From Cymbomonas tetramitiformis (taxonomy: Eukaryota > Chlorophyta > Pyramimonadophyceae > Pyramimonadales > Pyramimonadaceae), in NCBI GenBank assembly GCA_001247695.2, contig LGRX02035310.1:1-64000 (forward strand): DNA of 64,000 nucleotides. Reading direction: 5' to 3'. This document shows positions 12,301 to 63,910 of this stretch, in pieces. How positions within the stretch are numbered: the first letter of the stretch is position 1; the number at the start of each line of letters is the position of its first letter. Both the position numbers and the translations under genes were made by a program. The notes beneath the pieces were generated by a model, which was given only the letters and a program-made list of their open reading frames with translations, was not told the origin of the DNA and ran no database searches.

Positions 12301-15300
12301 AGTGTTGCAGGCTTGCATTGTCATTGCCGCGTGGAATAAACTTGCCTCGATGCTTATCACTGGCAAGGGTAGTCCCGGTGCACTCGCACTAGTCTGGTCT
12401 GCTTGCCCTTTGGTACGCTGATCATCCTTCACAGTCGAGGGTAGTCCTGCATACAATGGAATGTTGCCCTCACCAACTTATGAGCCTACGGGACAGTTTG
12501 ATTTGCCATAAAAGTATATTACAGTGCAAAGGCTCGGTAGGCATCAATATAAACGCGGTATACTGACAACACATTATGTGATATACAAGTGCAAGAAAAC
12601 AAGTAATTCACTAGTATGCATTAGTGCAAATACCGTCTATTGTGATGGGTTCATTGCGTCGTCATTCTGATGCATTGTTTGTGTGTGTTGGTGTGTGACA
12701 CTGTGCTGCTGAATATTGGCAGCAGGCCTAGTACAACTCTAGTCATGTTGTTCGTAGCCACCGTTTGTTGATTCTTCGGTACAATCTTACCTTGACGTAT
12801 GAAAGTGCCGGTATAAGCTTGTACATATTACGGTATGAGCGCGATGCACACGTATGTGTGTTTCAACACGCATATGCGTGCCAATACTAGTACAATTGCG
12901 CCGCGCTTGTACTGGCACAAACACGCATATGTGTTTTTACGCTTATGCTGTAACACACACACACACACTGAACGGCATGAGATCGGCCAACAAAAGCCAG
13001 CCCACCATCATCCCAGTGGATGTGAGAAGCAAATCAAGAGCAGGGCGGGGCCGCGACAAGATACCACAAACTCATACATATTCCCAACCCAAATGCAAAG
13101 CAGCATGGAAAGATGAAACAATGTGACCGATCATCGCGCCAAACAACTGCTGGTCTCTGGGTTACGGAGTGAGTGGACACACACACACACACGGGCGAGG
13201 TTGTTGGACGTGCCGGAACTAACAGTGAACAGCTGTCGGGAAGGCGACCACCGGGTGGTGAACTATCGGCCACCGGGAGGGCTTGGGAATCACAGGCAAC
13301 TGTGGGGATGGGACCCCAAGTAGGAACAGTGCGGCGTGACAGTTACAGCGCAAGTGTGGAGCGCATTGCTCAAGTTCGCGGCCACCTCGCAAGGCAATCA
13401 GCGCAAGGGCTCCAGTCACGGGAGTTGGTGCTGGGGGTAGAGGGCTACAGGCGCAAGTCGGTGGCGGATGCGCAAGTTTGGATGAGGGCAACCCAGTTTA
13501 TCATTCTCAGACCCTTGGGACAGCGCTTGGGCATCTCTGGCCGTGGCGTGGGTGGGCAAGCTCTCTTGAGATCAGGCTGTAGGGGGCAGCGGGATGATGT
13601 GGGATGTGGGCTTGGTGGTGGAGGGGTGGCTCGATTGGCGGAGGTGAGCCGGCTCCAGAGACACAGCAGCAGTGCGCCGGCAGGACAGCCGCAGAGGGGC
13701 TCAGGTGGCCCAGTGAGGCTCAGGGAGCAGAGGGGTGGTCTTGCGCGTGGGCTTGGTGGTGGAGATATGGCTCGCGCAGATCGGGGGAGCAGGGATGAAC
13801 CGGCTTCAGGCACAAGGCGGCAGTGCGCTGGCGGTGCAGATGCAGAGGGGCTCGGGTGGCTCAGCGAAGCTTAGGGGGTCCCATTCTTCACTAGTGAGCT
13901 CCAGAGAATCCGGATGAGCGTCCCGAAATGTGTGTTGAATCCATTGATCCCCGGCGTGGGTACATAGTGCACTCTCCTGTGGCTTCGGGGTGCCAAAGGA
14001 GTCGCAAGGATAAGCATACACACACACACACACATCAGTGTCTATGCTAGCGTACATATTTCTTATACTTCCTACCTCGCCACCTCCAGGTTAGCACCGC
14101 ATAAACTAGGACAACATATGCGTCTATGACAGGCCCTGTGAGACAATCAGGACAGTGACATCCGCCGCAGGGGGGAAATACTCAATTCAGCTTTACGGTA
14201 CGACTCCTTCTATGTTATGATTTTAGCCCCTAAAGTTGCATGATGTTTATCCTATAGATGTATTATGCATCTGACCCTGCCATAGCGTGCACGGGATCAC
14301 AACACAAAAAAGGGGGCACCCAGTGAAAAGTAGTAGACACTGGAAGACGTCACGAGACATACGTATGATTGTGTGTATGTACATACACATGCATGTTCAC
14401 TATCTGGCACTGCAACCATCTTCCACCCAGTGCTTGATAGTACTACTGTCTTGAACATGTCATCTTCTAGGGCCTACTTTGAGTGCGGGTGCCCCCAGTC
14501 TGTGCTGGTCCGAAATTAATAACCATGCATAACCATGCATACAAAATATAAACCTGCATCTGCATGCTGCATTCTTGTGCAGTGCATGTGCTGAGCGATA
14601 TTGCTGAACAATATTGCTGAGCAATATTGCTGAGCGATATTGCTGAGCACGCCTTATTCAAATTGTGCTAATTCTGACACCATCATATTGATAAACCTAC
14701 CTTCCTGATCTGGCAATACAAATATTGCAATATGAATTATATATCATATACAAGCATACAACTGTGTATTGCTGTATCACTTTACTGTATACCATTTTCG
14801 TGCTATCACGCAGGGGAGCACATACAGCGTCCCAACATTGGAGGTGATAATTAATATTGTGGGTACTAAATATATGTATGGCGTGTGCGCGTGCTAAAAT
14901 GTATGTGTGTGTGTGTGTGTGTGTGCGTGTCCCCTACGTACTCGGTGAAAGGGTATACGGAGTAGTGTGCTGGCACACATCGATATTTATTTACCACTAT
15001 GCTGCAGAGCCAAGGATATGCCTGAGCATTTATGTATGGGGAAAAAATAATGACCATGCTCGACTTCTCACACCTGTTGCCGCTGTAGAAGATGGCGTGG
15101 TTCGAAATGCTGGCTTTCTACCATTCAGCTGAAAGGCTTGTTGGATGGTATACTCAAACAGCTCACTGTAATTACCATCTAGGATCGTACTTTTTTGCAT
15201 TTTAGAAATTCCTGTCTGTAGGCAATTAGTTGCATCGCATATACCCAATATTCTGCCATCCAGGTCTGTAACGGGTAAGTGACGAAACTTTTGTTGCAAC

Positions 15301-16518
15301 ATTGTTCTCAAGGCCGTGATTACGGGAACACCCTCATTGATGGTAATAGGATGCAATGTCATTAGGTCTGCGCACTTGACGTAGATGTTTTTACGCTTCA
15401 ACGGCTCAATAACGCTGGTGTCATCGGCGGGTGTTGCACTCTGCCCAGGTGAGGAAGATGGAACCAACAGCTTGTATGTGATGTCTACATCCGTAAGCAC
15501 TCCCGAGATACCTCGAGATTTCAGCAGCTTGGCAGATGCGTCATGACCAGCTATATTATTGCTTCCATGATAATCGATTCGGTTTACTGCACAGAACGCT
15601 CCTGCAATATGGGGGTTTCCATAATCGCAGTCCACATCACTTTCAGGTTGTGCGCCAACACTGGCGCTTCTCTGGTTATTGGCCGCATCGACGTCATGCT
15701 CAACTGCGTATGGCAGGCTTCCGTCGTAGTCATGATGATCATTATAAAGCAGTATACAGTCGAGTTTATTTTCGTGCATCATCTCGATAGCGGTGAAAAG
15801 GCAAGTGCTTTCTGGAATCATCCATGCCTGGTATGCTTGCAGCGTGCGTGATGCCCCCGCGTCAGCACGAACGAACGATTTCCCTTATATATAGCATGTG
15901 CAATATGCACCCTTCGTTTGACTAACGAAGATGTAAGAATATGCGTCAAGGACACCTTAATGCACGCGCTGCTACCAGCATATATATACACAGAGAATCA
16001 TGCACGAGCCGCTATCGTTTATTTCATGCAGCAATATGATGAAAATAGCAGCGAACCCGAATCTATATCAATGAACCAATGTCACCGCATGTGATATACG
16101 CAAGCATATATGCATTCATCGAGTGACATACACCGCGACGATATTTTGTGCACGCGTAGCAGATATATACATACACACACGCACACGCACACGCACACAC
16201 ACACACACCTATATATATATACTATCCCAACATACGCTTGTTAAACCTCTGTCGTTAGTTGATGTATATACTTCACTGCGAGCTCATGATATTGTGAGCT
16301 CGTAACAACCTCAGCGTAAACAGGCGATATCGTATGTGTGAATAATAATTGGTGTATGCGCGCGCTTTTAGCGAAAGTGTCAAAAAAATGGCCGCAGCGC
16401 CTACCTGGGTTATTTTCATATTACCTACTATAGCAATTGCACCGATGTCTTGGTTGACCTGACTTTCCGTAAGCAGTATGGAAGTGACAGCAGCAGCAGA
16501 GTGGGCCTCCTCGTTCAT
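6305..16518 (-). CDS. CBS-domain protein with four CBS motifs and C-terminal membrane anchor (CBSCBSPB-like), six exons
   Basis: Exons read on the minus strand: 16518-16405, 15827-15074, 12446-12006, 8110-7911, 7779-7667 and 7163-6305. Every junction is GT-AG with matching phase; the total is 2481 nt, 826 residues plus stop. The ATG at 16518 is the first after an in-frame TAG. CBS signatures: AWMIPESTCLFTAIEMM and ALRTMLQQKFRHLPVTD (exons 1-2), VISIEASLFHAAMTMQ and LVDALNIMHDRGFRHLP (exon 3), finished by CILGLLDVLDLSGAIF (exon 4). Bateman modules bind adenine nucleotides and sense energy state. The last exon has a low-complexity linker, a short coiled-coil-like ADIDELKRRICSLERHA and a hydrophobic tail (AVLGAMCIAAGVAV) before RTRFTRR, implying a tail anchor. 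Plant CBSCBSPB proteins have a PB1 domain before this anchor; I cannot see one. Exons 5 and 6 are the least certain. Confidence 0.85.
8973..11361. repeat. Outer inverted-repeat pair in CBS-gene intron (foldback arrangement)
   Basis: The ends TTTTATATACACCCTGCCACG at about 8974 and its reverse complement ending near 11361 start arms of about 280 bp: 8973-9262 and about 11075-11361. The arms share CAGGGGCACCCAAAATTATCTTGGGCCC, the CCGCGGGGGGAAT block and an ACTTGGGNACGT.. segment, in opposite orientation. The element sits in the intron between exons 3 and 4 of the CBS gene. The space between the arms holds a second related inverted pair and a degenerate tandem array (about 10560-10790, CCCACTATCTAAG-type units). 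No transposase is visible. Confidence 0.8.
9263..10293. repeat. Inner inverted pair of the same about 300-bp repeat family
   Basis: Arms 9263 to about 9560 and 9993-10293 are inverted copies, starting TTTGTATACACCCTGTCACGG. They are diverged relatives of the outer arms (same CAGGGGCACCCAAAATT and CACCGCGGGGGG blocks). The right copy is flanked by exact 19-bp direct repeats TTATTTATCATCGGATATT at 9974-9992 and 10294-10312, which looks like a target-site duplication of that single arm. The pair may therefore be two independent insertions of a 300-bp interspersed element in opposite directions rather than one transposon. Confidence 0.75.
13600..13880. repeat. GC-rich 141-bp tandem duplication in intron
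   Basis: The block GGGCTTGGTGGTGGAG begins at 13608 and again at 13749. The intervening GCAGAGGGGCTCAGGTGG part is repeated near 13690 and 13845. It lies in the intron between exons 2 and 3 of the CBS gene and makes long accidental open frames on both strands. Confidence 0.75.
14588..14648. repeat. 14-bp tandem repeat, about four units
   Basis: Four near-identical units of the form GCTGAGCAATATT occur in a row, with variants GAACAATATT and GAGCGATATT. They lie in the intron between CBS exons 2 and 3. Confidence 0.8.
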
Positions 16519-21924: not shown

Positions 21925-22467
21925 TGTCAGGGATATGACCGATGACATACATGTCATACATGTCTTATCTGTCATACCTGTCATGTCATGTCATGCCATG
22001 TCATGTCATATGCCATAATGACATACAGTCGTCAAGTATTCTCAGTACGGTCGACTATGACATGTACAGTCATAATGTCTGTCATCCACCTAAGGTGAGT
22101 AACATCTGTCATCGAGAGGCCAAGTATATGGCATCGAGATGGCGAAGCAAGACAAGTCTTGAAGAACCGAAGTGTCCTGATAAGATGTGTCTTCGCTTCA
22201 AGCATGCACTGAACAGCATGCGGCGAGCATCAATGGCTATATCGACCAGCCGATGCGGGAAGTTCACCTAGTGCTCTCGGGTTCACAACCCGATGGTGGT
22301 AACGCATGAGATGCGTGAGAGCATTAGAGTATATGAGGAGCATTGGGCTCAAGCAAGCACTTCTGGTCTACAGACTGCTGCACTCATATCCCACCAAACT
22401 ATTGCGTTTCGCTGTTACCGTTCAATAACAGCAGCGTCACATATATTGTTCGTATAGAACCGTGACA
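21925..22467 (+). mobile_element. Solo LTR of the TRIM/LARD family
   Basis: The 543-bp unit begins TGTCAGGGATATGACCGATG and ends AACCGTGACA, TG...CA as in LTRs, flanked by AGGG on both sides (4-bp duplication). Its first 200 bp match the sense strand of the LTR at 50402-51002: the GACATACATGTCATAC tract, CAGTACGGTCGAC, TGTCATCGAGAG and an ATGGCGAAGCAAGA block. It also keeps a hairpin TCGGGTTCACAACCCGA that corresponds in place to the tRNA T-arm in the 26.4-kb TRIM LTR. There is no partner LTR nearby, so it is a recombinational solo LTR. Confidence 0.8.
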
Positions 22468-26125: not shown

Positions 26126-26397
26126 TCACAAGGGTAGCATAATCATTCAGGAATAGAAAGGTGCTAAATGGGGAATAAAAATCAGGTCCTGTATCTCGGG
26201 AATGGATTATATGTCACATGCCATCTATCGTTTGTACTGTGAACTATCACTAGGTATCGCGGAGGTACAAGCGGTTCAGCGTGTGCAATATTTTGCGTCT
26301 GGCCCACCCCCTTCCTCTAAACAATTTATTGCATGTAGCATGACGCATATTTTTTTCCACCATTCGATTCTAAAGCGTTTGTATTCATTAGGTGAAT

Positions 26398-26693
26398 TGT
26401 CAAGGTTGGAAATCGGTTCGGGGATTTCACTGTACGAGCCGGGTCAAATCACATATATCGTCATGGGGCGAAATAAAGTGCTCCACGACGGGATTTGAAC
26501 CCGTGACGTTCGCTTCTCTAGTGCGACGCTCTAACCAACTGAGCTACGCGGAGGATGATGATCCTTTCGCGCATTTCAGTGGTACTCGTACAGATCGGAC
26601 TGTTACAGATCGATGATCGACTATGCGTGTGACATCGACGACGACGTACCAACATCGCGACTGCGGGCGTCTGTCATCTTTCGATCCGTAACA
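26398..26693 (-). repeat. TRIM 3' LTR (sense is minus strand)
   Basis: The 296-bp repeat has its plus-strand ends at TGTCAAGG and CCGTAACA. It differs from the other LTR by a few substitutions and a 4-bp indel near 26473 (GAAATAAAGTG versus GAAAGTG). Confidence 0.92.
26481..26553 (-). tRNA. tRNA-like gene in TRIM 3' LTR, anticodon reads AGA
   Basis: The 73-nt sequence folds into a full cloverleaf: acceptor CTCCGCG/CGTGGAG (one G-U), D-arm GCTC/GAGC with AGTTGGTTA loop, T-arm ACGGG/CCCGT with TTCAAAT loop. The A box (TAGCTCAGTTGG) and B box (GGTTCAAATCC) are intact. The anticodon loop CTAGAGA gives AGA (serine), but the stem has an A-A mismatch beside the loop and the variable loop is only 5 nt (ACGTC), whereas serine tRNAs have a long variable arm. 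Charging identity is therefore doubtful. No intron, encoded CCA or immediate T-run terminator is seen. Confidence 0.8.
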
Positions 26694-26707
26694 TATCTCC
26701 CCTCTTT
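26694..26707 (-). promoter_or_regulatory. TRIM polypurine tract
   Basis: On the minus strand AAAGAGGGGAGATA abuts the start of the 3' LTR (TGTTACGG). The same tract, AAGAGGGGAGATC, occupies the same place in the large element at 51003. Confidence 0.85.
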
Positions 26708-27007
26708 AAAGTGTCGTGACCTCACGACATTCGTGTCGAGTTACTTTTCAGAGGTCCGACCTCAAATGTGATGACGTGGCAGCCTGCGATGAAGCTGGGT
26801 AGCAGTTCTTGGGATGCAACCCATCGCACCGAAGGTGCATCGCAGTTCTTGGGATGCAGCCCGAATCCACGTCATCAGCGCGGGTCACATCGTGCCCATG
26901 CATACGCGATCGTAGCGCAGGTCACATCACCGTGCCCGAGCATACGCGATCTTAGCGTAGGTCACATCGTGTGCCTTATGCCGTTACATCTGAGGCGGTT
27001 TCCGAAC

Positions 27008-27024
27008 CGTCGCTTCGATACCAA
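27008..27024 (-). promoter_or_regulatory. TRIM primer-binding site (initiator Met tRNA-like)
   Basis: On the minus strand TTGGTATCGAAGCGACG follows the 5' LTR directly. It matches the common TGGTATC(A)GAGC site complementary to the 3' end of eukaryotic initiator tRNA-Met, with one or two differences. Confidence 0.75.
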
Positions 27025-27316
27025 TGTCAAGGTTGGAAATCGGTGCGGGGATTTCACTGTACGAGCCGGGTCAAATCATATATATCGTCATGGGGCGAAA
27101 GTGCTCCACCACGGGATTTGAACCCGTGACGTTCGCTTCTCTAGTGCGACGCTCTAACCAACTGAGCTACGCGGAGGATGATGATCCTTTCGCGCATTTC
27201 AGTGGTACTCGTGCAGATCGGACTGTTACAGATCGATGATCGACTATGCGTGTGACATCGACGACGACGTACCAACATCGCGACTGCGGGCGTCTGTCAT
27301 CTTTCGATCCGTGACA
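27025..27316 (-). repeat. TRIM 5' LTR (sense is minus strand)
   Basis: The 292-bp repeat ends GATCCGTGACA next to the TGAAT duplication and contains the second tRNA-like gene. Confidence 0.92.
27104..27176 (-). tRNA. tRNA-like gene in TRIM 5' LTR, anticodon reads AGA
   Basis: It is identical to the copy at 26481-26553 except for one base that creates a G-G mismatch at the base of the acceptor stem (3' strand GGTGGAG). A and B boxes, T-arm and the CTAGAGA anticodon loop are unchanged. Because it is the upstream LTR, Pol III initiation here would run into the element body. Confidence 0.78.
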
Positions 27317-45230: not shown

Positions 45231-45237
45231 GATGAAG

Positions 45238-45493
45238 TGCTGGAATCTGTATAGGCAGCCCTGACTGGGAGTCCCGGTGCAGGCCCCTATGACAGACCCC
45301 TAGGACCAACACTGGACTGCTGACTGATCTATAGGTTCGTGCTGTGACACACGCTGTGTCCCAGGTAGGCTAGTTTCCGAGACCGTTGCGAGACCGTTCC
45401 GGGTATATCTAGCTTAGGGTTTAATTATCTTATGAGTGTTTATCCACACAGTTCGGGACCCTCTGATATCTAGTGAACTAGGATATTCCGGTA
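45238..45493 (+). repeat. 5' LTR of the 45-kb gag-only element
   Basis: The 256-bp LTR begins TGCTGGAATCTG and ends ATATTCCGGTA, followed by GGTCGTGGCCCCA. Confidence 0.93.
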
Positions 45494-45497
45494 GGTC

Positions 45498-45513
45498 GTG
45501 GCCCCATCCACGC
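45498..45513 (+). promoter_or_regulatory. Primer-binding-site candidate
   Basis: GTGGCCCCATCCACGC lies 4 bp after the LTR. The TGG(A/C)CCCA core is conserved next to the LTRs at 31156 and 63729, implying a common tRNA primer whose 3' end I cannot identify. Confidence 0.55.
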
Positions 45514-45645
45514 TTTATTCCACTTGCTAGTTTGGCCATGATTGGCTAAACGGCCGCTCGGAGAGGTGGTGCGCGTTTGCGCGTTTGGGCATCAGTGGGA
45601 ATTTTGAGATGAGCAGCTTGCGGTGAGCGACTTTGAGCCGCAGCT

Positions 45646-48600
45646 ATGGGGTACCGGCTTGGATCGGGTTTCGTCGTCGCAATGTTCATTCACGGTTTTC
45701 TGCACGCTCTGATCCCGCTTGCTACCGTGTTTTGGGCTGGTGACCTTGGCACCTTTGACTTCGACGACATCTTCCTTTGCCCCTCGCTTGCATGGCTCGA
45801 CCGTTCCGTCCGTATCTGTGACGTCGCATTTTCCCCGCGACCCTACCCAAACGTGCTGCAGCGTACCGCCTCCCCTCAGGCTTTTCTAGAGATGGGAATT
45901 ACTACGAGATCCAAAAAGTCCCTCACGAGGGACAGCGACATCGACGCCTCTCTGAGGTTGATCGACGGGGTACGGAACACACCGACGGCGGCTACGCCTT
46001 CTGTTCCTACCCCCAACCCTGCATCGAACGTAGACGAGGACGTGGCCGTCAGACGTTACCTGCAGGAGCAGTCCAAGCTCGTCGACGAGATCTACAAGAC
46101 GCGACTGCATCGAGCTTGGGCCAAGAGTATCCGTGAGGATATTCTTGGCGACAAGAAACATCATTTTCGCGGTACGGACGACGCTGGCCTTCTGTCCGAC
46201 CTGGTGGTGCAGCTGCGTACGGAGTTTCAGTCGACTGGTCTGGAGCTACGTGCCTTTGACCTCGACGACCCTCTGGCACCCGTGGTCAACAAGGTGAATG
46301 GGCTTCTCTACGACGTCCTTGCCCTGGTGATTGAGAAGCACAGCAACGCGTTCGTCTGGCTGACTGGTACGGATTCTTCGACTGGCCGAGATGGACGGCG
46401 AGCTCTCATCGACGTTATCAAGTGCCTATTCTAAAAATATTACGGTGGGTATACCCACCGTAACGCCAAACTTTGCAAGCTCATACCGACCGCACAAGTA
46501 GGTTGCGGGGGTTAAACATATGGATTTTCTGTGACCCAAGAGGTTGATTAAAGGACGGAAAACTTAATTTACACGACTCCGATAAGTTTTGGGCACATTA
46601 CACAACCTTGAAGTTGGGGAAATAACGGTGGGTAGAAAACTTCGCTTACGGTGGGTATACCCATTCAACTCTATTTGCAGACTTCTGCAGCTTGGTATAA
46701 CATCAATATACTTATTTTTTCAATATGTACTTTGATTTTGGTATATAACCGACGTACTTTTTGGTACAATATGTGCTGCCACCTCGCAGACCTCCGACAC
46801 TTGCACATTCAAAATCAGGTACTATGCACACCAAATATACTATATACACAGTGCATTCCGATGATATTAGGGTTTGGGTATTTGGGTTCGTTTGGCCCGT
46901 TATCAAGTCATTTATGGCGCATGTGGAGGCTCCATAGAGATTCACGGGAGTGTCTAGAACAAGTTGGTCACTGGTGACATGCCGTGATTCGCAGCCAATC
47001 ATCGGTAATTATTGATACCCTTCAGGTGGGTATACCCACCGTAAGCACCTCTTACGGTGGGTATACCCACCCTTCGTAGAATAGGCACAAGGGCTGTGTA
47101 CCGGTGGCACTACGGGAGTCCCAGCAGGAGGAGCACGCCGCGTTGCGTTATCCCGCAAACGTTGACCCGCAGCCGATCTTGGCTAAGGAGCAGCGTTTGG
47201 TGCGGGATAACCGAGCTTCCGACTGGACACCGACCGAGGCCACGAGGAAGTTATCCCTCTACACCCGACTCGACCCCGTGTTCTACGCTGCGGTGAAGGT
47301 CCGCTATCCCATGGCCGCTGACTTGACTCAGGTGTCACTGGTTTCGCTCCGCTCCATGGTTGTGGTAATTTACCAGGCTTGGGCACAGACGGGCGGGGGG
47401 AAGGCGGCTTCTGGCGCGGACGGCGTCTCCGCGCACCTTTCCAGCAACGAGTACGACGCCCTTCTTCAAAAGATCACGGAGCTCAAGGAGCTCGTGCAGC
47501 GGCAACACGGTGAGGCCGCTCCGGTTGTGCGTCAACAGCGGGAGCGGGTGCAGCAGCGGCAGCAGCAGCAGCGCGGTCAGCAGCCGCGAGGATTCCGTGT
47601 GGGGACCCACAAGGCCCCATCGGTGGGATTCGACCGCGACGATCAACGGGCGAAGCCGTTCTGCGGTAGGTGCAAGAAGGCAGGGAAAGGCGAGGCGTAT
47701 CACTTTTACCGCGACTGCCCGTTGGGCGGGCGCCAACACCCGCCCACCTCTGTTGCAGCATTCTGCGTTCCCATCGACGAGGAGGACGCAGAGGGGGTGC
47801 ACGCACTCGCCATGTGTGCGTTGTTCCAGCAGGCAGCGGATGACGGGGCGGAGTCCTTCGCACGTGCGGCAGCCGCGTACGGGCCGCCCGCGGTGCTTTG
47901 TGCGGGAGCGGTGGGCGGCATCGACGTGTCCGCCTACGGCTTCACCGTGGAGCAGCAGCCGGCTTCCGAGGGGGATGACATTCTCCGCCGGCTCGACGAT
48001 CTTGCCGCGGAGGTCCACTCCGCGGCCAACCCGCAGGTACATTACACCCACGCATCTTTCCCGCCTCCTGCCGGCGTCGGGCAGGAGGCTTCGGCTCTGG
48101 TGTGCGGACCCGCCGCAGCGGTGGCCACACCGGAGGAGCAGGTTCCGGCAGGTGGTGCGGCGGCATCGGCATCCGCCGTGCCGGCCCCTGCTATGCCTGT
48201 CTCGCAGGGAAGATGTGAAGCCCGCGCCACTTCAATCGGCGCGGGTGACCACCACAGCGGACGCGGACGGTGAGTTCGCTGGGTTCGTTCAGACCGTGAA
48301 CCACGCCGCCATCGGACAGGTTGATCTCACGGGTTACGACACGGACGATTACGAGGACCTCGCCGACGGCAGCTTCGTCGTGAAGCCGCGGGCTTCGACA
48401 ATCTCGGCAAATCACTCGTCGGCGCCCGCAGCCCGAGCACCTCACTCTGGTGGTGCTCTGGGAGATTGGCATGACGGTGCTCCCCGCAGCCACGGTTGTG
48501 GAAAGCCTCCGTGGGGCTTCCCCGCCCACGCGGGCTTGTGGGGGATGCCGTTCCTTCTACTTTCCTTCATTCTCTTGATTTCTGTCGTGGGAGTGGGGGC

Positions 48601-49078
48601 TGCCACCTATACGGTGGCCAATGACATCGACCCTGTGCAGGTATCGGGTCGGGCTGCGCCGCAGCCTGTGCTGTGCAGGGGAGTGGAGGCACCGCTTATT
48701 ACGGTGCCGTGTGCTGTTCCGCCTCGTCTCCACCGGCGGGTACAGAGGCGGCAGGGCCTCTATATGGCTCCGGTGCCATGGCATCCCGGGCCGCCGCCGC
48801 CTGCCATGCTATTTGAGGACGGTCCTCCGCTGTCGCCGGCATCGTCTTCAGATGACGAGGCCCCACCTTCGGGCAGTACTTGGCAGCACCCCGGTGCGGT
48901 GCAGCCTCCCGTAATCAACGAATCAGCAACACCGACTCCGTCAAATTCTCTGGCGAGTGATTTTCCAGAGACCGACGCCTTACACTTTGGCCGCCCCGTA
49001 TTGCTCCGCCGTGCTACTGCGGGCTACTACGGTGCTTATTGTGGTGACGGTGCTCCTCTGGCCTTTGACCCCGAGTAG
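45646..49078 (+). pseudogene. Gag-like polyprotein of the 45-kb element: knuckle and C-terminal membrane segment; broken by MITE and frameshift
   Basis: Part 1 (45646-46422): a hydrophobic leader (FVVAMFIHGFLHALIPLATVF), then basic TTRSKKSLTRDSDIDASLRL, then helical gag-like sequence to RRALIDVIK. A 665-bp MITE interrupts. Part 2 resumes at about 47092 with QEEHAALRYPANVDPQPILA, LDPVFYAAVKVRY, a Gln-rich stretch, and a zinc-knuckle-like CGRCKKAGKGEAYHFYRDC (C-x2-C-x9-H-x4-C). Near 48195-48215 the frame shifts by one base; part 3 (to 49078) has YDTDDYEDLADG, GCGKPPWGF, the membrane segment PFLLLSFILLISVVGVGAAT and a Pro-rich cytosolic or lumenal tail. The protein presumably packages element RNA; why it carries a membrane segment is unknown. 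Confidence 0.8.
46423..47087. mobile_element. 665-bp MITE with TGCCTATTCTA inverted ends, inserted in gag
   Basis: The terminal inverted repeat TGCCTATTCTA occurs at both ends (46423-46433; complement at 47077-47087). The duplicated target CAAG is at 46419-46422 and 47088-47091. Inside, the palindrome ACGGTGGGTATACCCACCGT and its partial copies occur near 46442, 46625, 46650, 47027 and 47054. There is no transposase frame. Removing the element plus one CAAG restores the gag reading frame. The superfamily is undetermined (4-bp duplication). Confidence 0.85.
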
Positions 49079-49405
49079 TTATGTTTCTGGTTCTTGCAGT
49101 ACACCACTAGTCTGGTGGTGTGCTGAGATCTACTTTGACCTCAACACGGTCTTCAATTTGGTTTATGATTTTACTTTGGCACCTTTGAACTCTTCAATCT
49201 GACTTACTGGCACAGAGCTTTTCAGTAGTTTAGCAGGACTTGCATTGCCTGTATGGTTTCTCTTGTGCTGGTTAGAGGTTTCCAATTTGTGTATCAGAAT
49301 AGCACAGTTGGATTAGCAGTTAGGACTTGTCACCCTGGCTTCTGCCCTAGAGATTTACATTTCTGACTCTCCTAGCCAGTCACCACCCACAGTGCTGGGG
49401 TGGTG

Positions 49406-49661
49406 TGCTGGAATCTGTATAGGCAGCCCTGACTGGGAGTCCCGGTGCAGGCCCCTATGACAGACCCCTAGGACCAACACTGGACTGCTGACTGATCTAT
49501 AGGTTCGTGTTGTGACACACGTTGTGTCACAGGTAGGCTAGTTTCCGAGACCGTTGCGAGACCGTTCCGGGTATATCTAGCTTAGGGTTTATTTATCTTA
49601 TGAGTGTTTATCCACACAGTTCGGGACCCTCTGATATCTAGTGAACTAGGATATTCCGGTA
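49406..49661 (+). repeat. 3' LTR of the 45-kb gag-only element
   Basis: The 256-bp LTR is the same length as the 5' LTR, preceded by the purine-rich GCTGGGGTGGTG and followed by the TGAAG duplication. Confidence 0.93.
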
Positions 49662-50401: not shown

Positions 50402-51002
50402 TGTTAGGGCTGATATGCGAGCCCACAAATATTATACAATATATCAAATAAACACTGTGCTGTTGAACGGCACACACAAGTGTAACAATCAAGCGGGTTG
50501 TGAGTTGCAGTCTCTGGATAAAGAACTGCTGAAGCACAACGCTTCCTCACTTTGTACCATACGTCTCCCATCATCTTAGATGGTACCGCCATTGGGTTGT
50601 GAACCCGAGACGTAGGTTGAACGACCAGTATTGTAATAACGACTAGTTCGTTCATACTGTGCATGCGTGTTCCGCACATGCTTAAAAGCCAAGATGGTTC
50701 TTGTTTGTATTCAAGATGTATCTTTGCTTTGCCATCTTCGAGTTCGACGTACGAACTCTCGATGACAGGGATGCCAGATGATGTGACATTATCATCTGGC
50801 GACATGTACAGTCATCGTCGACCGTACTGACGACTGTCATAATAATATATGACACGACTCGACATGTACAGTCATGGTCGACCGTACTGACGACTGTCAT
50901 AATAATATATGACACGACATGACATGACATGGTATGACATGTCTGACAGGTATGACACGTATGACATGTATGACACATATGTCATCGGTCATGACCCTGA
51001 CA
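50402..51002 (-). repeat. 3' LTR (LTR A) of the large element
   Basis: The 601-bp LTR has plus-strand ends TGTTAGGG and CCCTGACA. It contains a 66-bp near-perfect direct duplication (about 50794-50925: CATATATTATTATGACAG plus CAGTACGGTCGAC) and a ATGTCATAC-rich tract. A hairpin GGGTTGTGAACCC (about 50594) matches the T-arm-like hairpin of the solo LTR at 21925. Confidence 0.9.
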
Positions 51003-53414
51003 GATCTCCCCTCTTAAAAGAGTTGTGACCTCACAACGGGCATACCTTTGTATATGTCTATGATGTCTTTGTTGTTGTCGCTTCTTGCTGGTACCAGTCT
51101 TCTTACACCGATTTGAGGCGTCCCTCATGGTGTTTTTAGGTTATTGGGGGGAACTGAGTCCACTTTAGTCCCTCACCTTAGGCATTTAGCCCTACAGTTC
51201 TTAGGATGTAGCCCCCATGAATTGCGTATCGTATTTCAGAGTGACGTTTCAAGGTATCTTCCGAGGTTTACGTTACGGATAGATATTTGCGCTTGCCGTC
51301 GACACCTTCGATGATCGACGATTTAACGAACGATTCTCGGCGATAATGCATCCACCTCTTCCTCCCTTCAGAGAGCTTACTCCCCCGAAGTTCACAGGAA
51401 TACTATGGAGAGCCCCTTTCGAATATTTCGAAATGGCTTCTTTTTAATGCAGCGGAGGAGGCCCTGCTTACGAGATATCGGAGGGTCTTTATAAGTCCAC
51501 TTTAAATCCTCACCCGTCTGCCAAACTCCCTTTTTTCGGTCCGGTACGCGCGCTTTGACGAACATCTATCGCGATGAGTGAGAATGGATTCGCCACGTAC
51601 TAATGTGAAATTTGTTTAGTTATGTTTGTCAAGCACAACTCAGGATCACAACTCCGTCTACCTCAATCTCCGGTAGCTGCGGATGATTGGCCAAGAGTCC
51701 GATGACAAACCACGGCTGGCAAAGGTAGCATAGCAGTTTTTCACAGATATTGGTACCCGCATATGCGTATCTGTGTAAGGGTATGATTTATACAAGGCTC
51801 ACTACACCTTAGCAAGGAAGGATCAATTCCTGCTCCTGGCATATCAATTTGATGCAGGGTAAAAAATGTTAGGGATATAACCCTGCAGTTCTCGGGTTGC
51901 AGCCCATTGCACCGAAGGTGCATCGCAGTCTTTGGGATGCAGCCCTGTAGTTCTTGGGATGCAGCCCTGCAGTTCTTGGGATGCAGCCCTGATATATATA
52001 TGTGACCGATGGACGAAAACCTCTTGGGTACATGTTTCCACGGCCTGATTATTATTTGGTCGGCAATTATTAGCAAAAGTCATCGGCTATCAGCTTTTGA
52101 CTTAGAAGCCACAATGTTATAGAAGCTGCGACCTATTGTAACCATATGCAGCAGTTATGCCTTTAGCATACGTAGACAATATGATTATGTGGAACTTATA
52201 GTCCCACTTAATTTGCATCATGATAAATTTATCCAGGTGTTAACAAATGTTCAGGATTTGATAAGGGGTTGACGCCCCACAAGCCAAAGGTCACTGTCTC
52301 ATAAGGCTCGCCTCAAGTGTGCGGCTTTGAGGATTAGCGTCCTGGCGAGGCACAGTCATGATGCTTCCTAGTCCATAATGGAGTTGGAAATGAGAATGCT
52401 CAAGATATCCGAAGACAGGAAGGCTTTTGGTTGGCCAGAGTTACTGTCAAGATGCTTAACCTTGATGGAATGACATTCGGATACAAACTGTGTAACCATG
52501 CATGTGACTTATGCATTGGTGTATGACTTTGAAGAATTGTCTCTTGTCATGAACCTGGAAGGAATGACGGGCAAATAGCTAGAGTGGCGGATTTATTACT
52601 CGGCTTTGCTGTTCATGGATTTCGATGCCTGATGGCACAACTGGCAATCCTTTGCTCAGATGCTTTACTTAAGACATTGGCAACAACTTGTGTGCCAGCT
52701 TCTCTAGATTTGGGGAGAAACCATGGATCAACAATTTATGAATCAAAACACATGTATCAAGGTTGATTCAACGAATCCTTCAACTCTTGAATTTCGACAA
52801 TCAGCATCTCAGGCTGTTGACGTCAAAGTGATGGTCGTAAGCTTACAATATAGCTTATTCACCTTTGAAAAACCATCGTTCTCCTATGTCAGTGCCCTTC
52901 ATATAAATGATAGAGCCGGAGAAATATGCATCTATGATTTCTTCATAATGAACTTCATGTGTCAGTAAGTCAAATAAGACTTCATTTGATGTTTCAATCG
53001 GCATGATGTACCGTGTCATCAACTTTATGGCTGCTATATACAGATGCTGGAACTTTTGATAAGATTTTTAATCTTCCAAGCAAAATCACAATGATGTAAA
53101 TCAATATGTGGCAAGCAGCTGCATGAAGAATGAATGAATCTATACTCCTTCCTCCCCCTTTTAAAAAGAGGTGTATCAAACCAATCAGATGGTGATGGAG
53201 AATGCTATTCAATCATTATGTTATGTGAAAATGAACAATTATAACAATGTCAATATGAACACCGATTCTCTCTACGTCATACCGGCAATATGCCTGACGT
53301 TTTTGAATGTGGCAAATGCCAGATGATGTCAAATGTCCAATGTCAATTAACTATGATTCAATATGCAGTTTTTGGGTTGCAGCCCACATACATTGTCAGT
53401 TCAGGGTCACTATA

Positions 53415-56086: not shown

Positions 56087-59000
56087 TTTTTAGTTGTATT
56101 TCTAGCTTATCATCTTCCCCCCTCAAGGAAGTGTATTGCTAGGCGGTTGTCAAGCGCCGTTCAAATACAACAGAGGTCCGACCTCTATGTGATGACGTGA
56201 AGCTTTCTATGAAGCTGGATAGCAGTTCTCGGGTTGCAGCCCATTGCACCGAAGGTGCATTGCAGTTATTGGGATGCAGCCCGAATCCACGTCATCAGCA
56301 TGGGTCATATAGTGCCCAAGCATGTGCTGTATATATACAATACTACCCTCCAGCGGCGAAGTGGCTTGCTATTACCATCATCGTATGCCGTGGGATATCA
56401 ATATATGATCAGAGAGCATGGATATATATATATATATATGTACCATGTTTGTCAATATTGGAGAGACTATGTCTTCTTTAAAATCCTCATGGTCATATGT
56501 ATAATGGTGCTATACTGATGTCAACACCTTCTCTCTGAGTGATTCATTAATTTCAGATGTGATGTCGTGGCATAAAATATGTCCACGTCATTGGCACGAG
56601 TCATGTTGTGTCCATGCATACACGATCTTAGCGCAGGTCACAATACAGTGCCCGAGCATACGCGATTTTAGCGTAGGTCACATTGTGCCTCTGTTTATTA
56701 CATCTGAGAATATCTGTTACTCATCTTTATGAGTCTAGACAGCATTGTGCTGATTGCAATGCTTTCTCTGGTGACTTGTATATCACTGATTATACCTTAT
56801 GTGGTGATCAGTCCAGTGCAATATTTTGTCACCGGGATGTACAGGGATTGTGAATGATTGCAATCCAACCGGAGGAATAATCCCAACAGCTTATTCTGTA
56901 CTAATGAATTCATCGGAGTTATACTCATTTCGACGATTCAAAAACCCATGTCATTGTAGTGATGACAACTCATGTGAATATATAGGGTTTTTATCAGAAT
57001 GCTTTTATGTGATGTCAACATATTATGAACAATTCACTTGCATCTCAGGACAAAGGAGTTACGCTTGGAAGGTCTTGCATGGTGGTCACCAACAGTTATC
57101 AGCTGTTATTCGGGTGCCATATTCTGCCTTCAGCACTGGGACTATATCAACCAGTCTTATAGCGATGCACTTGTCCTTCCTATAGTGCCAAAGTGTATCA
57201 GGTGGGATATATATATTAACTATCATCTTCTGATCCAGGAAATGCAATTAAGCATGGTATCAGGTTATATGTTATATATATAGTTCAGCATTCCAAACTT
57301 ACTCGAGAATGTAAATGCTGAGCAAGAGTCAACTTATAGTCATTGGGATATGGTTTCCCATCCGAGTTTATACTTTATTAGTGATGGTGGATTTAACGTT
57401 GTACAGATTTCAACGTTATTTGTGGATGCAGTGATTTTATCAAAAGCAATCCATCAGAAATCACCATATCGGAATATGAAATGGATATGTGTGAATCCTT
57501 TATCCACCTTCTTCCCCCCTTGAGGAAGTGTGAACACATAGGCAGTCAGTTGTTATATATATCTCATAGCTTATAGCTTATAGGTTATAGCATGCAGTCC
57601 TTATAGGAAGCAGCTGTTACAGTTTTAGGGTTGTTGCCCAACAGTTCTTGGGTTGTTGCCCGACAGTTCTTGGGTTGTTGCCCGATTTATAATCATGTCT
57701 GTGTCGAAAACAGCATGATATGTTAATGCTAAATACGAAGTTTATCGAAATTATAGTAGCATTTTAGGGCATGTAATGTTACAGTGGCCCATACACCCAA
57801 TAATATGATTAGGGTGTTACATGGTATCAGTAACCCTAAAATAGGTAAAAAATAAGCAGTATAATTTTTTTGCAAAGGTTTTTAAGCAAAACTGCATTTA
57901 ATACCTAAATAAATGTAAGGTGGTTTTCAGAGGGTACGTTACACCCCTGACACACACATTTAATTTTAGGGGTGTTACAGGGTGTTACAAGTGCTGTATA
58001 AATCAGGGAATATTCAGATATAGCTGAATAATCAGATCAGCAAAAAAAAATCCACACACATTTTTCATTTTGAAATCATGCGTGGGAGTTTTTTTACGTA
58101 TTTTGTTACAGCCAACATGTATACCCCTATATATTACACACCTAATATTTAGGGTGTTACACGAGATATGACCATGGTCATTATGATTTTCTGATACCTT
58201 AATAGGTATAGAATCATAATTTAAAATAAAATGGGCACACATTTTTCATTTTGAAATCATGCGTGGAGCATTTTTACCCATTTTTCAGCTTTTTCAGCTA
58301 TCTGATATATTGCCTCGGTGACATATCTCAGTGTATATGTGGAATGTAAAGTACAGAATCACTGCAACAAACTTCACTTTGGCACATGATAAATTTCATG
58401 GCAAATAAGTGAATTGTGCTGTATATCAACATCTATGGTTGATAGCATTTCTGGGTTTTACTGATTTAAACCCATGGCAGCAATTGTACATTCTGGTGAT
58501 ATATAAGTTATCAACTTAAGTGGGAACATCCAGTTAGGAACATCCACTTTAGTGATATTTGTCAATCTATGATCTGTTCTGAGCATAGGTCTGTGCTCTA
58601 AGATTTATCAAAATGATATTTCTTATTTAGAACATATCTGGACATTGCTTGATACAATCACAACAATTTAACACAACACATTTGTATGTGTGTGTTGTCC
58701 TTAACAACTATATCAGATGTCATGTAGATACTGATCTGTGAGTTGCATGCATTTGAACTGATCAGATCTGAATCAACTGTCAATGTGCAACGTAGTTGTT
58801 GATATTGCTCCAGCGATGATATGTGGAATGACGAGTGGACTGCACCCAACAGTTACCAGCTGTTTCATGGGTGCAGTATTTGCCTTCGGGTCTGGAGATA
58901 ACTCCATCCAGCCCTACAGCATCTTGTCTTATCCTGCTCCCTTATCTATCGCAATCACTGACATTTTCCACGCACATGTGTTTGGAAAATGGTATGTACA

Positions 59001-60554: not shown

Positions 60555-60569
60555 TTGAGAATACCATTA
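60555..60569 (-). promoter_or_regulatory. Primer-binding site of the large element
   Basis: On the minus strand TAATGGTATTCTCA follows LTR B. TGGTAT is the start of the initiator-Met complementary site, as in the TRIM at 27024. Confidence 0.6.
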
Positions 60570-60613
60570 TGTTAGGGCTGATATGCGAGCCCACAAATAT
60601 TATACAATATATC
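60570..60613 (-). repeat. LTR B of the large element, first part
   Basis: TGTTAGGGCTGATATGCGAG to ACAATATATC is identical to the start of LTR A. It is interrupted after ATATC by the gag-only element. Confidence 0.92.
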
Positions 60614-60795
60614 TGTTGGATATACCCCTAGGACTCGGGATATATACACTCAGTGATCAGTTTTCTCAGAATGTAATAAAGTTGATAAGTTAACCCGATA
60701 TAACGGGCATAAACAGTTAGGGTTCGGGTTCGGGTGACAGTCATACACACTACTATAGGAAGAGTCACAAAGCAAGCGGTGTGACTGTTCCAGCA
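60614..60795 (-). repeat. 3' LTR of the 60.6-kb gag-only element
   Basis: Plus-strand ends are TGTTGGATATAC and GTTCCAGCA. The internal purine tract starts at 60796. Confidence 0.92.
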
Positions 60796-61009
60796 CACCA
60801 CCTAGTGTGGTGACTGGCTAGCCGAAAGTGAAACCTGTGAACAAACACCATCTACAGCGGTGGAAATTGGGCTCTAAGGGAAGGCCTGTCCTTTCTGGCA
60901 GGGCGGTTCCCAGTCAAGAGTTGTAAATCTGAAACCGGTCCGTGATCGGACCCCTCTGCACATACAGCTACGGTCAATCTCACTGTGCAGGAGCGGCATG
61001 ATTAACTTC

Positions 61010-63496
61010 CTAGCCACTAGTTGGCGGTGGCACTGCTGCGCCAGCCCGCAGCACAGTCATGGTGCCGTGAATTGAAGTCGTCGATGCCGTGATTGAATCA
61101 TTCGTAGAGCCAGAAAAGGAATCTGAATTTTGTCGATCGTCGTGCACAGCCGCATGGTCTCCAGAGCTCTGCTCCTCGTCATCGGACGAGTACGGTGGTG
61201 GCGGGTAAGGTGGTGACTGTGGAACATAATCAGGGTCGGGATTATACAGCCATGGTGGCTGCGGGACATTGCGGAGAGTGTGGAACCCCTGTCGCAGCTC
61301 CCGATACCGCGTCTGCCGATGCGGCGGAATAGCAGCCGGCGCCGCAAAAGTGAATGCAGGCTCGTTGTTGGTTGTCTCAGCAGCACCACCGACCTCCAGG
61401 CCGGTGTGGTCCGGTGCACATGCCTCGCCAGGGGCGGCAGCTGTGAGTGGCGCCGCGGTGGCGCATACACAAAAGAACGCACAAAGCATTACCGCAATCG
61501 CCGAAGAGCGGGCAAACCCCCAAGGCGGTGCACCGCATCCCGGACGAGATGCTGTAGGGCGCGGGACCGCATCCTCACCGTCAATAGAGTCACACCCAGT
61601 TGCAGAGTCGTCCACGTCGCCGTCGCAAGAGTCGGTCTCCGACCCGGCGTGCATGTACCGCATCGCGAAGTCCTTGCCCGCAGCCGTGATCGAGAGTCCC
61701 CCCATCCGCGCGATCTTGTCCGCAAAGCAGAGGTCGGGCTCGTGCGCGTGCATGGGGTCCACCGGCATCATGTCACCGGCGTCGGACGCCTCCGACTCGT
61801 CCGGGTAAACATGCGTGATTGCCGCCGGCGGTGGAGCCGGCGGTGGGTCCTCCCGGACATGCGTGCAAGCGGCAGCCGAGATCCCGCTCTCGACACCACC
61901 GACCGTGAAGCCGCCCATGTGGGTGGCAGGCTGGCAGTAGGGCAGGAATTCCTGCAACGCACCGTCTTCCTGCTCCGGCTCGATCCCGAAGGAACACGCC
62001 GAAACGCCGTCGAGCATCTCCGGCTTGCCCCCCGCCAGAAGGCAGAGTGCATCGAACCGCTCGCCGTTGTGCTCGTCCATGGCCGTCTGAAACTGCTCCG
62101 CCAGCAAGTCGTTCTCGATGTCACCGAGGGAGAAGCTGTGGAAGCTTCCCCCAGCGCCGTGCTTGCCGCCGTTCGGGCAGTCGCGGTGCCAGTGGCGGGC
62201 CTCGTCCTTCTTGCACGTTGAATTTTGGTAGAACGGAATGAAGTCACCGCTGCCCTTGTGGAAAGCAACGCGCTTCCTCACCTGCGATTGCTGCCAGTTT
62301 CCCCCCGTTGGGAGGTCACCTGCCGCAAAACGAACACCGGAGCCGCCTCCCCCGTTGCCGATCTTGTTCTTGTCCGCCCGCGGGGTAAAACCCCGCCCGT
62401 TAACCTTGTCCGTGAGGACCTTCAGCTGCCGCTTCACGTCGAGGATGATGGCCGTGAGGTCGGACAGCTGCGAGGTGTCGCCGTCAGTGGCCACGGCTGC
62501 CGCGGACAGGGTGAACGAGGCAGTGTGCGTACCGGCTGCCACGTGTCGGGCGTAGCACTCGAGGACCCATTGCTGAATGGTGAGGAGGTCCACGGCCGCC
62601 CGCTGCTGGTGTGTGAAGAGTCGTGACACCACCGGCGCGTAGAATCCCGGGTCCAGCGCCGCGAGGAACAACTCCTTCACCTCGTCATCGTCGAGGGTGT
62701 TGCGCCTCTTGGCGGACCGCAAGGCCGCGTTGAAATCCGTGATGGACTCGGACGGGTCGGTGTAGGCCTTGAAGCGGACGCTAAGGAGGTCCGATGTCCC
62801 CTGAAAGGGTGCACCGGAGTCCAGCAGACGCCTTGCGAGCTCCAGAAGGGCCCGCTTGCCGTCCAGCGGGTGCAATGTCGCAGAGGCCTCGAGCCAGTCA
62901 CCCGCCGGAGAGGCGGGACATACGATGAGCTCGAGCGTTGAAAAAAGAAGTTTGTTGGCCTCGGGACGGACGGCCAACGTGGAGTCCTCCAAGTCGAACA
63001 TCGGCGCAAATAAAGCATCCTGCGCCTCGAATGCCTCCTGGAGAGCAGGCACCAGCTTGGAGAGAAGCACCTGCGCGTTGGATTCCGTTCCTGTGAAACG
63101 GTCATGTTTCTCACGGAAACACTTCCGGATCACGTGCTTCGCCACGCTCTCGTCGAAGCGCTCACGGGTGAGAGAGCGAACACCCGCCAAGAAAACAGCT
63201 TGAGCGGAGTTCGCAGCCGGAACACCAGTAGTTGCCGGCGTAGCCGGCGTGACGGAATTACGGGCAGCAGCGGAGTCGAAAATCGTAGCCAAAGAGCGTC
63301 GGCGAGACGCCATACTTGAGGTCAATCTAGTCGCAACCATGGTGAAAGAGACTGTAGAGACGAAGTGAGGGAAAATGGGACGAGGTGCGGAAGGAGCGGC
63401 GGCCAAAAGTCGTAATGTGGTTGTCGAGGAAAACAAGGGAAAGCCGTGGCGTAAAAACTTCCCCACGTGCATGTGGATGCAGAGTGACGCGGCCAA
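61010..63496 (-). CDS. Gag-like protein of gag-only retrotransposon, C-terminal membrane segment, intact
   Basis: The open frame is 828 codons. The first Met gives a hydrophobic/Pro-rich leader of about 52 residues before MVATRLTSSMASRRRSLATIF, the basic start equivalent to TTRSKK in the 45-kb protein; either Met could be used. The middle is helical gag-like (HVIRKCFREKHDRFTGTE, LHPLDGKRALLELARRL, FLAALDPGFYAPVVSRLF). A knuckle-like CKKDEARHWHRDC follows, but the first Cys of the usual CCHC is missing. Then comes an acidic region, GCGAPPWGF, a membrane segment (IAVMLCAFFCVCATAAPL), and a Pro-rich, Ser/Asp-rich tail containing PPYPPPPYSSDDEE. It presumably coats element RNA; no enzymatic motif is present. 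Confidence 0.85.
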   Translation of the reverse strand: MAASLCIHMHVGKFLRHGFPLFSSTTTLRLLAAAPSAPRPIFPHFVSTVSFTMVATRLTSSMASRRRSLATIFDSAAARNSVTPATPATTGVPAANSAQAVFLAGVRSLTRERFDESVAKHVIRKCFREKHDRFTGTESNAQVLLSKLVPALQEAFEAQDALFAPMFDLEDSTLAVRPEANKLLFSTLELIVCPASPAGDWLEASATLHPLDGKRALLELARRLLDSGAPFQGTSDLLSVRFKAYTDPSESITDFNAALRSAKRRNTLDDDEVKELFLAALDPGFYAPVVSRLFTHQQRAAVDLLTIQQWVLECYARHVAAGTHTASFTLSAAAVATDGDTSQLSDLTAIILDVKRQLKVLTDKVNGRGFTPRADKNKIGNGGGGSGVRFAAGDLPTGGNWQQSQVRKRVAFHKGSGDFIPFYQNSTCKKDEARHWHRDCPNGGKHGAGGSFHSFSLGDIENDLLAEQFQTAMDEHNGERFDALCLLAGGKPEMLDGVSACSFGIEPEQEDGALQEFLPYCQPATHMGGFTVGGVESGISAAACTHVREDPPPAPPPAAITHVYPDESEASDAGDMMPVDPMHAHEPDLCFADKIARMGGLSITAAGKDFAMRYMHAGSETDSCDGDVDDSATGCDSIDGEDAVPRPTASRPGCGAPPWGFARSSAIAVMLCAFFCVCATAAPLTAAAPGEACAPDHTGLEVGGAAETTNNEPAFTFAAPAAIPPHRQTRYRELRQGFHTLRNVPQPPWLYNPDPDYVPQSPPYPPPPYSSDDEEQSSGDHAAVHDDRQNSDSFSGSTNDSITASTTSIHGTMTVLRAGAAVPPPTSG

Positions 63497-63710
63497 GGAA
63501 AGTGGTGTCGGATCCGACCAAAGTTTCCAACGTCAACCAACGCGAAGCGAGGAAAATGAGTCCGCCTCGTGCACAAGCTTTCCGTAAATCCAATCAACCA
63601 GGCATCAGCTAGGCCATACCGCTCCGCCGCGCCTCTAGTGGAGCCCCTCACTCCATCTCAAGCGTCGCTGTTTAGCCAGACATGGCTAAAATTCGCAGTG
63701 TCTAAAAAAG

Positions 63711-63728
63711 AGTGCGTGGGGCCAAACC
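63711..63728 (-). promoter_or_regulatory. Primer-binding-site candidate
   Basis: On the minus strand GGTTTGGCCCCACGCACT follows the 5' LTR; its TGGCCCCA core equals that of the 45-kb element. Confidence 0.55.
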
Positions 63729-63910
63729 TGTTGGATATACCCCTAGGACTCGGGATATATACACTCAGTGATCAGTTTTCTCAGAATGTAATAAAGTTGA
63801 TAAGTTAACCCGATATAACGGGCATAAACAGTTAGGGTTCGGGTTCGGGTGACAGTCATACACACTACTATAGGAAGAGTCACAAAGCGAGCGGTGTGAC
63901 TGTTCCAGTA
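63729..63910 (-). repeat. 5' LTR of the 60.6-kb gag-only element
   Basis: The plus-strand end reads CCAGTA instead of CCAGCA, so in sense orientation the LTR begins TACTGG rather than TGCTGG. Apart from that there is one other substitution relative to the 3' LTR. Confidence 0.92.

Follow-up and report, generated by a model that had tools for sequence, protein, structure and literature searches.

A Helenus-type TRIM with a tRNA-like gene in each LTR in the green alga Cymbomonas tetramitiformis

TRIMs with Pol III-type genes in their LTRs

Miniature LTR elements (TRIMs) with tRNA-derived sequence in their LTRs have been described as Helenus, and the term TRIMp3 was coined in the same paper for TRIMs with Pol III promoters (Kojima, 2024, PMC10886601). 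According to Table 1 of that paper, the hosts of Helenus are fungi, animals and a single plant genus, Selaginella; Pol III transcription of Helenus is expected there, not shown (Kojima, 2024, PMC10886601). Helenus is also mentioned in a meeting report, and a butterfly genome paper matched a search for Helenus/TRIMp3 as well. Cassandra TRIMs carry a Pol III small-RNA gene within their LTRs, in this case 5S rRNA, and are known in tandem arrays (PMC4717578). Tandemly arrayed TRIMs follow an LTR-interior-LTR-interior-LTR plan within one outer target-site duplication (Gao, 2016, PMC4717578), and the word "tRNA" is absent from the main text of that paper by word search.

The element described here lies in a 64,000-nt stretch of a C. 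tetramitiformis contig (the window) and holds, like Cassandra, a Pol III-type small-RNA gene within its LTRs, the gene being a tRNA in place of 5S rRNA. tRNA-derived SINEs are likewise short, gene-less retroelements with a tRNA A/B-box promoter, and SINEs end in a LINE-like tail. The algal TRIM differs from them in having LTRs, a primer-binding site (PBS), a polypurine tract (PPT) and 5-bp target-site duplications (compare the SINEs as treated in PMC10886601).

The original prediction regarded this element as an unrecognized parallel to Cassandra, a place that Helenus had already taken in 2024 (PMC10886601); on finding Helenus, the idea of a first-of-its-kind element was rejected. As described in PMC10886601, Helenus resembles the algal TRIM in being shorter than ~1.3 kb with a tRNA in both LTRs, a PBS and a PPT; in a 5-bp target-site duplication (fungal and plant Helenus); in retaining the A and B boxes on a tRNA whose anticodon and body do not match; in having more than one family per genome; and in resembling a larger element in its interior and end signals, not in the LTR body. 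On the other hand, a green-algal host is absent from Kojima's Table 1, the algal sister families (A, the family of the window element, and B) combine related LTRs with different tRNA bodies, and a run of three or four T directly behind the tRNA (T3/T4) is not discussed in the sections of PMC10886601 consulted. Literature searches for Helenus and TRIMp3, with thin coverage of subscription journals, found no green-alga Helenus, and the titles and abstract openings returned by wider searches held no further tRNA-bearing TRIM. The green-algal host, the A/B sisters that differ in tRNA body and the T3/T4 behind the tRNA appear to be new, as does a large LTR element elsewhere in the window (element D), which has its PBS in common with family B and its purine-tract end in common with family A.

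The window element and its relatives in the genome

The window contains a complete TRIM of 919 bp on the minus strand (26398-27316), with the following parts and relatives:

26393-26397, no strand assigned: target-site duplication, left copy, TGAAT (plus strand)
26398-26693, minus: 3' LTR of TRIM family A, 296 bp
26469-26479, minus: trailer directly 3' of the 3' LTR tRNA, ACTTTATTTCG in the window copy
26480-26553, minus: tRNA-like gene in the 3' LTR, ARAGORN Ser-AGA, Rfam 58.4 bits
within 26480-26553, minus: A box TAGCTCAGTTGG and B box GGTTCAAATCC of the 3' LTR tRNA
26694-26707, minus: polypurine tract AAAGAGGGGAGATA
26694-27024, minus: coding-free interior, 331 bp
27012-27023, minus: PBS TGGTATCGAAGC, its first 7 nt matching the 3' end of the host initiator tRNA (iMet)
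27025-27316, minus: 5' LTR of TRIM family A, 292 bp
27103-27176, minus: tRNA-like gene in the 5' LTR, Rfam 48.8 bits
27317-27321, no strand assigned: target-site duplication, right copy, TGAAT (plus strand)
56171-56323 (88%) and 56582-56708 (82%), minus: two stretches like the TRIM interior, without TRIM LTRs

Since the PBS and the purine tract both lie on the minus strand, the element reads from right to left. All the landmarks by which it had been called fully delimited (LTRs, TGAAT duplication, PBS and purine tract) were recovered, and the LTRs are 97% identical; the predicted LTR length of 296 bp holds for the 3' LTR, the 5' LTR being 292 bp. With 919 bp, two LTRs and no coding capacity (no stop-to-stop frame of at least 200 aa overlaps it), the element falls within the ~0.3-1.3 kb of Helenus; its PBS stands behind the 5' LTR and its PPT ahead of the 3' LTR, and its target-site duplication of 5 bp agrees with the 4 or 5 bp of Helenus. 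The first 16 nt of the interior are identical in 26/33 elements and the last 20 nt in 31/33. A 21-22-nt minisatellite around GCAGTTCTTGGGATGCAGCCC lies in the TRIM interior (26791-26862) and recurs, with variants, at 51925-51991, 56222-56243 and 57619-57685.

Each LTR carries one tRNA of 74 nt (not 73 nt, as first proposed) on the minus strand, according to ARAGORN and Rfam (RF00005, gathering score 29); tRNA and element are co-directional, as had been claimed. The A and B boxes were also correctly predicted to be intact (TAGCTCAGTTGG and GGTTC), and both LTRs have the tRNA-derived sequence with A and B boxes (TRGCY...YGG and GGTTC) that characterizes Helenus. At gathering scores, Rfam reports just these two tRNAs in the window, and no 5S rRNA of the Cassandra type in the LTRs. 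A single base separates the two tRNAs and opens an acceptor-stem pair in the 5' copy. For the 3' LTR tRNA the minimum-energy RNA fold is a cloverleaf, from which the centroid differs, and the fold energy alone is unexceptional (z -1.58). A score of 58.4 bits is shared by 20 of the 26 family-A tRNA copies scored. Family-A tRNAs combine a Ser-AGA anticodon call with a body that has a 5-nt variable loop. A serine anticodon on a body with a short variable loop is a mismatch, so the family-A tRNA probably serves no translation. By reading, its 3' end, GTGGAGC, is not complementary to the PBS TGGTATCGAAGC, which indicates that the LTR tRNA, as in Helenus, is not itself the primer. Three patterns searched in viral and prokaryote collections (two in viral contigs, one in genome contigs) gave 0 matches.

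The assembly of the same genome (852 Mb, 25,745 contigs) was searched with both parts of the element. The 3' LTR query gave 832 first-look candidates, the best 40 of which were scored and were all 96-100% identical; the interior query gave 2288, the best 40 of which were all 99-100% identical. With the best 40 scored of 832, of 2288 and, for family B, of 1103 candidates, divergent copies are missing from the counts, which hold for the copies examined. With matches required to span the tRNA site at 85% identity or more, a threshold used for both families, 115 of 116 family-A LTR copies (60 loci) have a tRNA predicted by ARAGORN on the same strand; this count comes from 71 of 80 fetched loci, 9 duplicates having been dropped by hand, and the one spanning LTR without a predicted tRNA is in L030. 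Thirty of the 40 scored interior matches correspond to 30 loci with at least one tRNA each and 57 tRNA predictions in all, one belonging to family B. Twelve partial family-A LTR matches were set apart, of which 1 overlaps a tRNA call and 11 do not: one LTR of L066 has lost LTR positions 94-222, tRNA included, through an internal deletion, and the 10 others stop short of the tRNA site or have no call.

In two overlapping sets of adjacent LTR pairs, 16/33 and 14/23 are flanked by exact 5-bp target duplications. Inner pairs from tandem arrays are among the 33, and one probable allelic pair accounts for two of the 16. In addition, there is one solo LTR (L010, with GCCAC on either side), and two tandem arrays (L011 and L031) have three LTRs each within a single outer duplication, the plan of the tandemly arrayed TRIMs (Gao, 2016, PMC4717578). 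The locus pairs L026/L027, L029/L032 and L039/L042 are 99.5-99.8% alike across the whole stretch and are probably allelic; they were kept in the counts. The search of the source genome for the LTR, proposed with the original prediction, therefore yielded many copies, and with the tRNA in 115 of 116 spanning LTRs a chance single capture is rejected. A real TRIM, a sense-strand tRNA in both LTRs and many copies argue equally against a random insertion.

Of six loci read, three (L081, L082 and L085) contain a complete initiator tRNA gene of the host. The 3' end of these genes predicts the PBS TGGTATCAGAAC, which family A matches over 7 contiguous nt (TGGTATC) and family B and element D over 6 nt. 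The PBS had been described as initiator-Met-like; the 7 nt bear this out in part, and the match ends there and is weak. At L081 and L085 a tRNA-Ile(AAT) gene begins 4 and 7 nt behind the initiator tRNA on the same strand (ARAGORN bounds). At up to 2 mismatches, 24 nt from the anticodon half of the host iMet occur 782 times forward and 782 times in reverse across the genome; the two figures are equal and may be one both-strand count (backward control, 0). In the three loci among the six that are not tRNA genes (L083, L084 and L086, near 1501-1524), the match is confined to iMet positions 10, 12 or 14 to 40. This half-piece appears to be the PBS of half-tRNA-primed (copia/Ty5-like) elements present in large numbers. 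RuBisCO small-subunit sequence is present at 17 places in the genome (21 candidates, all scored). Eleven of these are strong (86-91 bits) and the other 6 are weak first pieces interrupted by a TGA, a pattern consistent with several copies of a split gene. In red-lineage algae rbcS is plastid-encoded, and the host initiator tRNA resembles the plant type; the small-subunit genes together with this plant-type initiator tRNA point to a host of the green lineage.

Sister family B and its tRNA

Family B was first met in L059, where an LTR is ~73% similar to that of family A over part of its length. Its LTR and interior are related to those of family A and its tRNA is different: ARAGORN calls SeC-TCA on a 73-nt body (Rfam 47.7 bits) with unpaired anticodon-stem positions. 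Scoring the best 40 of 1103 candidates gave 43 matches, of which 40 are 99-100% identical over ~270 bp or more and 3 are weak and shorter. All 22 spanning copies (13 loci) have a tRNA call, and one partial copy without a call was counted apart. Nine adjacent LTR pairs, one of them listed twice under overlapping loci, all have the PBS TGGTATTCTCG, which is distinct from that of family A, and four have an exact 5-bp duplication (CGCGC, CCCGT, CTAGG and CAAGG).

One copy of each family was aligned to compare the arms of the two tRNAs. The LTRs outside the tRNA are identical at 117/193 positions. Relative to this rate, the D arm, which contains the A box, and positions 8-9 are more alike (18/18, p = 1.2e-4), the T arm is marginally so (14/17, p = 0.05), and the anticodon arm is less alike (3/17, p = 3.7e-4). 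Plain drift at the rate of the LTR does not account for so dissimilar an anticodon arm, so an exchange or an independent origin of the tRNA body is probable. Taken as a whole, the tRNA (70%) is not the most conserved stretch between A and B, because a stretch of 74 columns starting 47 columns upstream reaches 83%, which counts against a simple story. An attempt to trace both tRNAs to host genes, in which just two kinds of host tRNA were compared, gave no source: against host Ile-AAT, the family-A tRNA has 50 matching positions and 22 mismatches and the family-B tRNA 52 and 17; against each other, the two have 53 and 19.

The sequence directly behind the tRNA also differs between the families. 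In family A the trailer is ACTTTCGCCCCAT in 48/67 LTRs; the tract is mostly T3, with TTTT in 9/67. In family B the trailer is TCATTTTCGCC or CCATTTTCGCC, with T4 directly behind the tRNA in all 25 copies (duplicates included), and in the one copy scanned this T4 is the sole run of at least four T in the LTR.

Transcription, rival explanations and mobilization

The best reading of these features is a putative Pol III role for the LTR tRNA. We consider it likely that this is a Helenus-type TRIM in which the tRNA acts as an internal Pol III promoter, the T3/T4 stop gives the terminal repeat (R), and an autonomous element provides mobilization. Pol III would start at the tRNA of the 5' LTR, and some transcripts would read through the weak T3/T4 stop behind it, cross the element and end at the equivalent stop in the 3' LTR. 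The tRNA unit itself would then be the R of the element RNA, and the proteins of an autonomous LTR retrotransposon (for Helenus, a Copia or Gypsy element) would reverse-transcribe and insert the TRIM. Against this explanation, the sense strand of the window TRIM contains no TTTT, which leaves the end of a Pol III transcript unexplained for that element. Avoidance of TTTT as a sign of Pol III read-through was considered and rejected, as 66% of the sequences obtained by dinucleotide shuffling of the 5' LTR with the interior lack TTTT too, and the avoidance is thus not significant.

Alternatively, the tRNA may be a passenger: a tRNA or tRNA-derived SINE would have landed once in the LTR of a successful TRIM and multiplied with it, with Pol II transcribing the element from another part of the LTR. 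We regard this as unlikely, though it explains several observations. In a family as young and nearly uniform as A, common descent would explain the presence of the tRNA in 115 of 116 copies, and most family-A copies have no T4 terminator. Variation within family A does not decide against a passenger either. Among near-full-length LTRs, tRNA columns vary at 16/4958 against 207/14541 in other LTR columns (67 LTRs, without L003 and L036), and at 12/3848 against 170/11183 in a set of 52, that is, 4 to 5 times less; only 2/22 and 0/16 of the variants shared between loci fall inside the tRNA, which makes up a quarter of the columns. However, the tRNA also holds fewer of the differences that separate the LTRs within a single element (11 against 96 elsewhere; 9 against 58 in the second set), so the low variation is not proof of selection. 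A McDonald-Kreitman-like test of shared against within-pair differences found no difference in either set (p = 1.0 and 0.19), so that selection acting on the tRNA is not demonstrated for family A. What speaks against a passenger comes from other families: family B, with its different tRNA body, retains the D arm/A box and the T arm/B box at an anticodon-arm identity of 3/17, places T4 behind the tRNA in every copy counted, and Helenus families in other hosts retain the A and B boxes too (PMC10886601).

The tRNA could also serve in RNA processing or packaging, with RNase P/Z cuts or tRNA-binding proteins setting the ends of a Pol II or Pol III transcript. Such a role would account for a cloverleaf that is kept as well as its boxes and for the family-A copies that lack T4, but cuts at both tRNAs would presumably remove the terminal repeat needed in strand transfer, and the anticodon arm is not kept between A and B; we find it very improbable. 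That the LTRs supply the host with working tRNA genes, as a tRNA-amplifying element would, is scarcely credible despite the clean cloverleaf at 58.4 bits in most family-A copies scored, given that anticodon and body disagree in both families (Ser-AGA with a 5-nt variable loop; SeC-TCA on 73 nt) and in many Helenus families (PMC10886601), and that the anticodon stem of family B has unpaired positions.

Within the favored reading of an internal Pol III promoter, a further and tentative proposal, which we hold to be rather doubtful, is that the Pol III gene is an exchangeable module in algal TRIMs: leader, trailer and interior would be kept, the tRNA body swapped, and a leaky T3/T4 would make R.

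The window also holds element D, a large LTR element whose end signals resemble those of both families:

50402-51001, minus: 3' LTR of element D, 600 bp, target-site duplication TGGGC
51002-51037, minus: purine-tract end of element D, in which 34 nt (51004-51037) are 88% identical to the equivalent TRIM site
60557-60566, minus: PBS of element D, TGGTATTCTC, equal to the first 10 nt of the family-B PBS

Element D runs from 64480 to 50402 of the contig on the minus strand; its 5' LTR (60570-64480) lies partly beyond the window and contains a nested LTR element (60613-63908). The purine-tract end is as in family A and the PBS as in family B, and the LTR end CCCTAACA resembles CCCTAAGA of family B. 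A motif scan of the interior found no [YF][VILMAC]DD, and Rfam found no tRNA in the 3' LTR (50500-51010); tRNA remnants in the LTR, looked for by Rfam at E up to 5 in two stretches, were likewise not found. With an interior free of this motif and no LTR tRNA found, element D is not the proven driver of the TRIMs, and from its sequence it may rather be a relative or fellow passenger. A candidate partner bearing reverse transcriptase would have as its signature the purine tract GAGGGGAGAT together with the PBS TGGTATTCTC or TGGTATCGAAGC.

Pieces of the LTR of element D occur in 20/80 fetched loci (duplicates included), often beside TRIM copies. A 27-nt stretch with a B-box-like hairpin, GGGTTCACAACCC, is found at 22275-22301 and 50584-50610 (93% alike), in two diverged copies of this LTR, and Rfam finds no tRNA there. 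The LTR elements at 45237-49661 and 60613-63908 have LTRs that are 98.4% and 99.4% identical, respectively, and three of their long open frames (265, 397 and 840 aa) gave no match in Pfam at E up to 0.001. Elsewhere in the window, a 284-aa stop-to-stop open frame with a CBS domain lies at 15030-15884 on the minus strand.

The two families extend the reach of the proposed Pol III-promoted TRIMs (TRIMp3) to a green alga, in the form of two young, multicopy families. In genomes with such elements, tRNA gene counts can be inflated through LTR copies. Having a common LTR frame and different tRNAs, families A and B are also a natural test of which parts of a tRNA an LTR element needs; on the evidence of the alignment, it is the boxes that appear to matter, and the anticodon arm does not.
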